26,725 nucleotides of DNA from a virus. Made by a program: the position numbers and the translations under genes. The DNA is taken from IMG/VR virus record IMGVR_UViG_3300027741_000235, positions 1 through 26,725 of that record, one strand, 5' to 3'. The notes beneath the pieces were generated by a model. It worked only from the letters and a program-made list of their open reading frames with translations. It searched no databases and was not told the DNA's origin. Position 1 is the first letter of the stretch; the number at the start of each line of letters is the position of its first letter. Positions 15,815 through 18,432 of this stretch are shown here, piece by piece.

Positions 15815-16074
15815 AAAACATAACGCAAGATTTTACTAAAATCAAACATCCCACTACTGGCAGTTGGTGGTGGGTGTTGCAAGTTACTGAAGATGTAATG
15901 CTTTGCTTCTGTCAAGTTAAAATAGCAAATAAGAACCGTGTAGCTTATCCGTACGGACTCAAAACCAAAGACGATAAGATGCAGCCATTAGGGCAAGCAA
16001 GTTCACAGGGTGAGGCACGGCTTGAACTGCAAAAGTATTTTAATGCAAACTTTGTACTTGCGGAATCTGAATAA
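15811..16074 (+). CDS. Uncharacterised small protein
   Basis: The gene codes for 87 residues with a Trp-rich strand (TGSWWWVLQVTEDVMLCF) and basic loops; it looks like a small beta-rich protein with no signal peptide. Its last codons carry the -33 element of the promoter at 16058. The gene ends the operon upstream of the predicted small RNA. No function can be assigned. Confidence 0.7.
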   Translation: MKNITQDFTKIKHPTTGSWWWVLQVTEDVMLCFCQVKIANKNRVAYPYGLKTKDDKMQPLGQASSQGEARLELQKYFNANFVLAESE

Positions 16075-16087
16075 TTTACTATCTTTG
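16058..16087 (+). promoter_or_regulatory. Promoter for the small RNA or the initiator operon
   Basis: TTG (16058-16060), 19 bases, then TATCTTTG (16080-16087), a full match to the Bacteroidota pattern. The predicted start of transcription, a few bases after the -7 box, coincides with the first hairpin of the structured RNA. The -33 element lies in the end of the preceding gene. Confidence 0.75.
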
Positions 16088-16090
16088 CAG

Positions 16091-16182
16091 TGTTAATTGT
16101 CTAGCAGCGGTTAACAACTAAAGACATTGGGAACAAAACCCATAGCCCTGCCAAGTCCTGCTAGATTGGTGGGGCTTTTTTT
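16091..16182 (+). ncRNA. Putative structured small RNA or leader with a loop-loop interaction
   Basis: About 92 bases between a good promoter and the initiator ATG hold three hairpins. P1 is TGTTAA / TTAACA (16091-16096, 16111-16116). P2 is TGGG / CCCA (16128-16131, 16139-16142). P3 is AGCCCTGCC / GGTGGGGCT (16144-16152, 16168-16176, two G-U pairs) and is followed by seven T, so it is a terminator. The P1 loop holds TCTAGCAG (16100-16107) and the P3 loop holds its exact complement CTGCTAGA (16158-16165), so the loops can kiss over 8 bp. This could be a stand-alone RNA or an attenuator of the replication operon. No known RNA family is recognised. Confidence 0.6.
16144..16182 (+). terminator. 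Rho-independent terminator upstream of the initiator gene
   Basis: A 9-bp stem AGCCCTGCC / GGTGGGGCT with a 15-base loop ends in seven T at 16176-16182, three bases before the ATG at 16186. It ends the upstream operon and the small RNA. Because no promoter fits between it and the ATG, the downstream genes need read-through. Confidence 0.8.
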
Positions 16183-16185
16183 ATT

Positions 16186-16974
16186 ATGAACCTAGCTACA
16201 TATCAATTTAGAGCCATAGATTATTCATTAGAGTTATTAGGTGACGGGAGTATAACTCATGCTGAGCAAACTGTTTATATTGCATTGCTTAGGGAATGGA
16301 ACAATAAAGGGTATAAAGAACTTAAAATATCATGTAGGTTTTTTGCTACAGGCTTCAATATCAGTATTAATACTTATCGCAAATCATTAATCATTCTTGA
16401 AAGTTTAGGCTTAATTAAGACTAGAAAAGGTAGTAATGATAATACGTTTGTGACTTTATGTGTATCATTCTTTGATACACTTGATGATACACTTAGTGAT
16501 ACACTTAGTGATACACTTGATGATACACTTGATGATACACTTAGTGATACAAATAATATACTTAATACTAAAGAACTAAATACTAATATAGATGATGTTG
16601 CTGAAGCAACACAGCCAGCACCACAAATTGAACTTTTTGAAAAAAATTACCCAATTAAGAAAAAGCGAAAACCTAGAGAGCCAAAAGTAGTAATTCCATT
16701 TGTCGCACCTACATTTGATGAGGTTGTAAAATTTGGTATTCAGCAAGCAGTTATTGACGGCAGTACTTCCTATGAAGGTGAAATGACTGGCAAAAAGTTT
16801 TATTTCAAAATGCTAGCCAAAGGATGGGCAAATGACAAAGGAGTTCACACAAAAGACTGGAGAGGTGATTTGATGATTTGGATTTACAATATAAAGCTAT
16901 TCAAAAAAGATAAACCACAATCAGGCACAGACGGAGTACGTTCCGCACAAAGCAGACCACTAGGATTAGACTAA
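16186..16974 (+). CDS. Replication initiator with internal iterons
   Basis: This 262-residue protein has an N-terminal winged-helix-like domain (about residues 25-95, with a recognition-helix region near SINTYRKSLIILESLGLI), a repetitive acidic linker (97-120, repeats of DTLD or DTLS), a basic stretch (KKKRKPREPK, about 158-167) and a C-terminal helical domain (about 175-245) with a GW and DW pattern seen in phage helicase-loader or DnaD-like proteins. The linker repeats come from tandem 12-bp DNA repeats, a candidate origin. The DnaB-type helicase follows 24 bases downstream, which supports initiation or helicase loading, like lambda O. The exact family is not certain. Confidence 0.78.
   Translation: MNLATYQFRAIDYSLELLGDGSITHAEQTVYIALLREWNNKGYKELKISCRFFATGFNISINTYRKSLIILESLGLIKTRKGSNDNTFVTLCVSFFDTLDDTLSDTLSDTLDDTLDDTLSDTNNILNTKELNTNIDDVAEATQPAPQIELFEKNYPIKKKRKPREPKVVIPFVAPTFDEVVKFGIQQAVIDGSTSYEGEMTGKKFYFKMLAKGWANDKGVHTKDWRGDLMIWIYNIKLFKKDKPQSGTDGVRSAQSRPLGLD
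16460..16600. other. Candidate replication origin (iterons plus AT-rich segment)
   Basis: Six perfect-length direct repeats lie at 16474-16545, preceded by an inverted half-repeat GTGTATCA (16460-16467) and followed by an AT-rich segment (about 16546-16600) that could melt. Iterons inside the initiator gene followed by an AT-rich segment is the layout of the phage lambda origin. Inferred from architecture only. Confidence 0.65.
16474..16545 (+). repeat. Six tandem 12-bp repeats (iterons)
   Basis: The units start at 16474, 16486, 16498, 16510, 16522 and 16534. Each is GATACACTT followed by GAT (type A) or AGT (type B), in the order A B B A A B. A seventh unit starting GATACAAAT at 16546 is degenerate. 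The unit is a multiple of three, so repeat number can vary without breaking the initiator frame. Confidence 0.9.
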
Positions 16975-16998: not shown

Positions 16999-18432
16999 AT
17001 GGCAAGGTTAAAAGATAAAGCAAAAACAGTAGTAGAATACGATAAGGACTTAGAAAGTTGCGTAGTAGCCTCTTTAATGATTGAAAAACCTTTGAGAGTT
17101 ATTGCATTTTCAATCCTCCCAAAAAAGGCAGCGGTTTTTGCAGATCCTATCATTTCAAAAGTCTATCAAGTCATATTAACTTTGGATGCTGAGGGATTGG
17201 ATGTGGACATGTTCACAGTAGCAAATAAGCTGAAAGAAAGCGCAATCATGCCAGCAAAAGAGGTTTATCCTTATCTAGGTGGTTTATGTTTGCTTATGAA
17301 TGGGTTTGAGCACTTTGAAACTTATTGCATGCTGATTGTAGACATGTATGTAAGGCGAGAGGCACAGGCAGCAAAAGATGATTATCAAAATTCATTGCTA
17401 GACCCTGAGCAAGATGTTGCAAGTGCAATCGAAACTCTAAACAAACGCAATGCCGAAATAGCTGAAGTTTACGCTAAAAGAAAAAGAGTTTATACAGCGC
17501 AAGATTTATTTGCTAGCATCCTGCAAAAATCCCAAGATGCAAGCCAAAACCCTAACACAGTAACAGGCATTGATACAGGCTTAAAAGTTCTCAATCAATT
17601 TTCCGCAGGATGGCAAAAAGGACATTTGAATATAATTGGTGCAAGACCTGCTATGGGCAAAACTATGCTTATGAATCATTTTGCAGCATCGGCAGCACTA
17701 AGCGGAAAGCGAGTGTTAGTATTTTCGATTGAAATGCCTAAAGAAGATATTGTAAGGCGTATGATTGCTAGTGAGGCAAAGGTTTCTAGCATGGATATTA
17801 AAACTGGCAAAGCTGATTTTAAGGCTTTGATAGATGCGGTTTCTAGTTTGGAGACAAAACACGCTGATAAGCTTTTTGTAGATGATAGCGGTGGAATCTC
17901 AATTTTTGAAGTTGAAGCAAAAATCAATCTAATCAAACCTGATATTGTTTTTATTGATTACCTTCAAATTATGGCAATCGCTGAATCAAATAACAGACGG
18001 GAGTGCATTGAGCAAAATTCTAGGGACTTAAAAATAATTGCTAAAAAGTACGGGATTAGCATAGTGGTACTTGCTCAATTAAGCAGGGATGTTGAAAAGC
18101 GAGGTAGTAAAATTCCCGTTATGAGTGACTTACGAGAGGCAGGTGGGATTGAGCAAGACGGGGACGTTATTGCAATGCTGCATAGACCTGCTTATTATTG
18201 TGAGGGTGAAGCTAGTGATGTAGAAAAATACCCAAACGAATTGCAGTTAATTATAACTAAGAATCGTGATGGAGAGGTAGGCACAATTTATCTTCATGCA
18301 GACTTAAGAACGCAAACGGTTACAGATTTACAGCCTCAATATAATAGCGCAGTAGGCTATAAAGCAGTCGAAATTATGCCACAATCAAAAATTCAAATGC
18401 CTGATACTTCACATTTCTCAACACCTTTTTAA
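16999..18432 (+). CDS. dnaB: Replicative DNA helicase, DnaB family
   Basis: This 477-residue protein is a DnaB-type hexameric helicase that unwinds the fork. The N-terminal DnaB_N-like domain spans about residues 15-120. The RecA-like core has Walker A GARPAMGKT (214-222), the catalytic Glu region FSIEMPKE (242-249), Walker B IVFIDYLQ (316-323), the strand LAQLSR (358-363) and the SDLREAGGIEQDGD segment (376-389) that is typical of DnaB. Length is close to bacterial DnaB (about 450-500). It follows the initiator gene, and the 18435 gene starts two bases after its stop. It probably loads through the upstream initiator or loader. Confidence 0.95.
   Translation: MARLKDKAKTVVEYDKDLESCVVASLMIEKPLRVIAFSILPKKAAVFADPIISKVYQVILTLDAEGLDVDMFTVANKLKESAIMPAKEVYPYLGGLCLLMNGFEHFETYCMLIVDMYVRREAQAAKDDYQNSLLDPEQDVASAIETLNKRNAEIAEVYAKRKRVYTAQDLFASILQKSQDASQNPNTVTGIDTGLKVLNQFSAGWQKGHLNIIGARPAMGKTMLMNHFAASAALSGKRVLVFSIEMPKEDIVRRMIASEAKVSSMDIKTGKADFKALIDAVSSLETKHADKLFVDDSGGISIFEVEAKINLIKPDIVFIDYLQIMAIAESNNRRECIEQNSRDLKIIAKKYGISIVVLAQLSRDVEKRGSKIPVMSDLREAGGIEQDGDVIAMLHRPAYYCEGEASDVEKYPNELQLIITKNRDGEVGTIYLHADLRTQTVTDLQPQYNSAVGYKAVEIMPQSKIQMPDTSHFSTPF

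Follow-up and report, generated by a model that had tools for sequence, protein, structure and literature searches.

A predicted leader RNA with complementary, hypervariable hairpin loops precedes the replication genes of Bacteroidota-type phages

The closest working parallel to the RNA element described here is the CI RNA of phage P4 (the seqA/seqB/seqC leader, together with IsrK and seqA-like RNAs), which halts transcription ahead of the replication genes by pairing with the seqA and seqC segments of the leader from which it comes (PMC4825925). Like the P4 CI and C4-type immunity RNAs, our element is a same-strand leader RNA with self-complementary segments located in front of replication genes, and the tie between CI pairing and transcription termination resembles a leader RNA in which a terminator loop is one of the partners. 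However, CI is processed from its leader, whereas here the partners are two hairpin loops, one of which belongs to the terminator. Additional differences from P4 CI and C4 are the Bacteroidota-type hosts, the lack of an Rfam match and the absence of a temperate-phage integrase: PF00589 was not found in 19 member records of up to 35.7 kb, which may be fragments, nor among the scanned proteins of the window, by which we mean the whole 26.7-kb phage record that was analyzed. The phages therefore appear to be lytic, as far as these possibly fragmentary records go, which makes the prophage-immunity parallel with P4 weak; strict prophage immunity was rejected because the integrase is missing from the same 19 records.

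Short complementary loops also serve replication control in ColE1 RNA I/RNA II and the plasmid copy-control RNAs, and compatibility of ColE1 plasmids depends on loop sequences (PMC9458437). In ColE1 the partners come from opposite strands, whereas both loops of our element are carried by one sense-strand RNA. The opposite promoter of a ColE1- or pT181-type system was not found, since a minus-strand TAnnTTTG within 350 nt is absent from 21 of 23 representatives, including the window. Therefore, a counter-transcribed RNA is not needed, and an antisense RNA was discarded as a candidate for the window, which has no minus-strand promoter. Each molecule of phi29 pRNA has two different loops that are mutually complementary (PMC7357161), as does each leader RNA; however, pRNA uses 4 pairs and serves packaging, whereas the leader RNA has a terminator and adjoins replication genes. 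For guanidine-II riboswitches, a contact between loops of the same molecule is presumed (PMC7357161), and they share with our element two contacting hairpins before the regulated gene, although their loops are conserved (ACGR) and those reported here are hypervariable. The leader RNA also bears comparison with a small RNA of phage lambda. Lambda OOP RNA is encoded near replication genes, as is the leader RNA. The two are similar in size, OOP being a small phage RNA of 77 nt (PMC12197685), but OOP is antisense to cII and the leader RNA is sense to the replication operon.

By membership, the leader RNA fits none of these systems, having no Rfam match, no integrase, no antisense promoter in the window, and a terminator placed at replication genes. 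Comparison with Rfam 15 gave no match at the gathering threshold in the window or in 16 member loci, and the best sub-threshold matches were far below it. An earlier note made from the sequence alone had suggested a new structured RNA of a family it did not recognize, and this search likewise returned no family. The element is thus a new structured RNA without an Rfam match, as judged from open papers, although it may already have been described in a subscription journal.

Promoter, hairpins and terminator before the replication genes

The RNA element spans positions 16089-16182 of the window on the plus strand, as are all recognizable genes of the record, and consists of hairpin H1, a purine-rich linker, hairpin H2 and an intrinsic terminator, H3, for a leader RNA of roughly 95 nt (Table 1). 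A small open reading frame 5' of the element ends at 16074. The folding z-score of the RNA is −2.57. The two segments that the earlier note had paired are indeed exact reverse complements and both lie in loops, and its terminator just before the ATG was found by both the terminator scan and folding. An extra G-U pair that it had proposed is possible (G16099-U16166), but competes with the H3 stem pair A16154-U16166. H2 is variable, being 6 bp in a second lineage (lineage 2) and missing from the L227 clade. The terminator stems of L227, L366 and L347 are interrupted by an internal loop (such as TTGATACGAAC/GGAACTTGATA), which is conserved and may serve in protein binding or as a tertiary motif.

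Table 1. Coordinates of the RNA element and adjoining genes in the window
Feature	Position	Strand	Basis and remarks
Bacteroidota-type promoter: TTG (16058-16060), 19-nt spacer, TATCTTTG (16080-16087)	16058-16087	+	Matches TAnnTTTG consensus
Hairpin H1: stem 16092-16098/16109-16115 (7 bp, plus 3 bp below a bulged A), 10-nt loop	16092-16115	+	Folding
Kissing segment 1, TCTAGCAG, in H1 loop	16100-16107	+	Exact complement of 16158-16165; hypervariable across family
Purine-rich linker with UAAAGAC	16116-16127	+	Family trend UAARGA; comparable linker in most lineages
Small hairpin H2: only 4 bp (16128-16131/16139-16142)	16128-16142	+	Sequence, folding
Intrinsic terminator H3: 11-bp stem 16144-16154/16166-16176, loop 16155-16165, then U7 (U-tract 16176-16182)	16144-16182	+	Terminator scan, folding; stem covaries versus L001
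Kissing segment 2, CTGCTAGA, in terminator loop	16158-16165	+	Complement of 16100-16107; compensated in L001
DnaD-like helicase loader or initiator	16186-16974	+	PHROGs 186 and 270, E 2e-5 and 6e-5
dnaB-like replicative helicase, next gene	16999-18432	+	PF03796, E 2e-70

The −7 consensus TAnnTTTG is documented in Bacteroides and Flavobacterium (PMC7366714), and the motif is located just 5' of the RNA in nearly all members. What the earlier note had called a good promoter fits this consensus as TTG-N19-TATCTTTG; a sigma-70 promoter was rejected, as a sigma-70 scan found none overlapping the element in the window.

The gene that the earlier note had taken for an initiator encodes a DnaD-like loader or initiator and is followed by dnaB. 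In lineages with readable context the RNA precedes a DnaD-like gene, either directly or with one or two inserted genes, not counting L366, L362 and L352, whose first downstream gene was not identified; a gene other than DnaD lies directly 3' of the RNA in L001, L013, L240 and L366. In the window, the ATG of the DnaD-like gene is about 10 nt past the terminator stem, and in most lineages the start codon lies 7-11 nt beyond the stem, a distance that grows to 23-30 nt in lineage 2 and the L240 group. A gap of 7-30 nt leaves no room for a promoter, and therefore the downstream genes should need read-through or transcripts from upstream; it is on this inference that we label the terminator conditional. 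Given that the RNA is directly 5' of replication genes, the link to replication or copy control that had been suggested is reasonable. Within the DnaD-like gene itself, tandem repeats are found at 16470-16550 (DTLSDTLDDT...), with SDTPSDT as the counterpart in L001.

Distribution and loop pairing among relatives

A descriptor composed of TAnnTTTG, a hairpin and a terminator hairpin with a complementary loop was run on phages fetched via DnaB. The same architecture was found first in lineage 2, and then in L240, L280, L298, L227/L268, L366, L347, L362 and L352, with L396, L398, L463 and the bacterial genome L381 as further members. The DnaB proteins of these groups are only ~30% identical to that of the window. 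Scrambled-promoter controls gave only chance matches or matches overlapping true members. The protein route into bacterial genomes yielded one true member, in genome G310 (L381), and pattern matches in genome contigs were dismissed as chance, coming mostly from GC-rich genomes. A covariance model of lineage 2 (R1), applied to 395 Bacteroidota genomes, returned mostly ordinary terminators. On the window, R1 matches exactly 16088-16181, but the match is weak (19.3 bits, E 0.056 over 582 kb), and therefore the case for a common ancestor of the two lineages is built less on sequence than on shared architecture and synteny. Among named phages we found no relative of the window DnaD protein, and the element is absent at the same place from Riemerella GRNRAP2, phage PJN03, Porphyromonas phage005a and Bacteroides C3_41T2LP. 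Members are nearly all environmental contigs without an isolated host, and the carriers are many environmental phages of Bacteroidota-type bacteria. That the RNA family exists is near certain.

By simple counting on the window alone, the chance of an 8-bp complement between two such loops is about 3e-4 per RNA, a rarity that the earlier note had pointed out, and coincidence is conceivable for a single sequence. The homologues make it untenable. In the nearest relative, L001, which retains the promoter, linker and terminator and whose terminator stem covaries with that of the window, the loops read TCAGCCAG/CTGGCTGA; three of the eight kissing pairs carry changes in both partners, and pairing is preserved at all eight positions. 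Alignment with MAFFT was poor between lineages, and covariation was therefore counted within lineage 2, with loop matching as the measure between lineages. The seven kissing pairs of lineage 2 form in 100% of cells and five of them show double changes, a signal that was lost when every partner was slid by one to three columns; both sides have changed in 6 of 11 pairs of the H1 stem. The covariation that the earlier note had proposed as a check is therefore present in both comparisons.

In addition, homologues were gathered with patterns of conserved non-loop sequence only, ignoring the loops, which gave 47 distinct RNAs. At least seven Watson-Crick loop-loop pairs are formed in 46 of these, and the remaining homologue, L011, has nine pairs including one G-U (read by eye); homologues that had lost the complement, named beforehand as evidence against the pairing, were not seen among the 47. 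For 21 representative loop pairs, delimited by hand, the longest within-RNA complements sum to 158, compared to a permutation maximum of 104 (0 of 100,000 permutations). Chance complementarity of the two loops was accordingly rejected, as it would have to account for 47 of 47 homologues and for a sum that no permutation reached, and we regard it as scarcely credible. Judged from this strong covariation, the loop-loop complement is under selection.

Approximately 20 distinct loop pairs occur across the phages, examples of which are GATACCAGC/GCTGGTATC, TGGTGGTGCA/TGCACCACCA, ATTGCAGA/TCTGCAAT, TCCGTACA/TGTACGGA, GTAGGAG/CTCCTAC, GTCGGAT/ATCCGAC and ATGCGAC/GTCGCAT. None of the loops is palindromic, and loop duplex energies range from −7 to −14.5 kcal/mol. 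The RNAs of L310 and L331 are nearly identical save for the two loops and the H3 closing pairs, and there the loops are unrelated (ATTGCAGA versus GTCGGAT), replaced as a matched pair. Likewise, changes in the H1 hairpin of lineage 2 go together with changes in the terminator loop while the intervening H2 is constant or independently swapped, and the kissing partners remain matched where the H2 region is swapped. This pattern of turnover is what self-recognition loops would show, and it could also arise by recombination or free covariation.

Recurring or similar loop types are found in L298, L227, L268 and L381, as well as in L280 and type C of lineage 2; because types recur or resemble one another across groups, not all of them are orthogonal. 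An identical pair in swapped order (GTCGCAT/ATGCGAC) is present in L463 and L347, and GTAGGAG is found in two unrelated lineages (L280 and L017). If kissing acts in trans, phages sharing loop pairs in this way (L463 with L347, L280 with L017) could cross-talk.

Possible modes of action

What the matched variable loops point to is a previously undescribed element for phage replication, either an RNA switch or a self-recognition tag. The reading that we prefer, with a probability of roughly one half, is that the terminator of a promoter-driven leader RNA acts as a gate to the DnaD-DnaB operon, with loop kissing in cis or in trans setting termination. Transcription of the leader RNA would begin at the element's own promoter, which heads the replication operon (DnaD-like loader, DnaB). 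Most transcripts would end at the terminator and build up as a small RNA, and read-through would yield the replication mRNA. A kissing helix of 7-10 bp between the H1 and terminator loops would alter how often the terminator acts. A finished short RNA might also kiss a leader still being transcribed from a second copy of the same genome, competing with the contact in cis and giving feedback in trans on replication or superinfection. Transcription, read-through control, action in cis or trans and replication feedback are all deduced here from comparison of sequences, in which the promoter, hairpins, terminator, selected loop complement and site before DnaD-DnaB are conserved.

Loop pairing could be intramolecular, forming a pseudoknot, or could occur between molecules. 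By a straight-rod estimate, kissing in cis is feasible for the window and also for the L227 clade if a bend is assumed, and is tight for L280, L298 and lineage 2; this calculation is crude, with hand-entered helix lengths and with bending and fraying ignored, and cannot decide between cis and trans. Given that no loop is palindromic, H1-H1 dimers are not intended. As the loop pair is hypervariable yet always self-matching, self-specific recognition is its most likely use. A tentative extension is that the RNAs form a widespread class of identity tags, with lock-and-key loops under diversifying selection through which a phage could detect how many copies of itself are present, or that a sibling has co-infected the cell, and gate its replication operon for kin alone.

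Some of the same features would be expected of a stand-alone, stable small RNA acting in trans on host or phage mRNAs, in which kissing only compacts or protects the molecule and the site before DnaD is simply where a free promoter-terminator unit fits. Such an RNA would explain the promoter of its own, the strong terminator and the retention of the element where the downstream gene differs (L001, L013, L240 and L366). Nevertheless, the site before replication genes is kept in many unrelated lineages, the downstream genes would be left promoterless, and a conserved seed is expected, whereas the exposed loops are the least conserved part, so that we consider this unlikely, if still a serious contender. 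We think it rather improbable that the contact is no more than a structural pseudoknot within some ordinary attenuator or ligand riboswitch, with loops free to drift provided that they pair: the guanidine-II riboswitch sets a precedent for an intramolecular contact (PMC7357161), and members of a clade share a conserved linker and internal loop of H3, but loops differ wholly between otherwise near-identical RNAs, which is faster than ordinary helix drift, and the lineages share no ligand-like core.

Two further proposals seem distinctly doubtful to us. Head-to-tail kissing of H1 and H3 loops could build dimers or rings with a structural role in replication or packaging, as for phi29 pRNA, whose protomer design of two different, complementary, never palindromic loops is the one seen here (PMC7357161), and the short linkers that leave cis kissing tight in L280, L298 and lineage 2 would agree with this. 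Yet one partner is a terminator loop, the hairpins are short with H2 optional, and the RNA lies in the replication module, away from the terminase (21597). Alternatively, the transcript could prime or open an origin at the loader gene, with kissing regulating an RNA-DNA hybrid as in ColE1 RNA II. Both the adjoining DnaD-like initiator/loader and dnaB genes and the use of kissing loops by ColE1-type control favor an origin RNA, but the strong terminator with a start codon immediately after it, the lack of conserved sequence suggestive of an origin beyond the RNA and the lack of an antisense promoter in the window argue against it.

To return to the gated operon, if the terminator does gate replication, the element would control lytic replication by RNA alone in Bacteroidota-type phages, for which few RNA regulators are described in the literature searched. 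The ~20 hypervariable loop pairs constitute a natural set, most of them mutually distinct, and their matched nature makes kin recognition between co-infecting phages directly testable.

Other predicted RNAs and structured stretches before phage genes

The starts of the downstream genes of L463 (1390-1500) and L298 (2407-2520) are nearly identical, and the RNAs upstream of them are alike in architecture and unrelated in sequence, which suggests module replacement. A different RNA occupies the same place before the DnaD-like gene in the related phages L008 (2636-2760) and L006 (~880-1040). This RNA has an H-type pseudoknot (ACAACACAATGA..GGGGGTGC..TCATTGTGTTGT..GCGCCCCC, followed by a U-tract) that covaries in L006, and in L008 the pseudoknot segment TCATTGTGTTGT is also complementary to the start region of the next gene. 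Finally, in Bacteroides phage C3_41T2LP (L469, 1450-1540), a TATATTTG promoter and a further structured stretch (GGTGGCGA...TCGCCACC) are located immediately before a helix-turn-helix gene.
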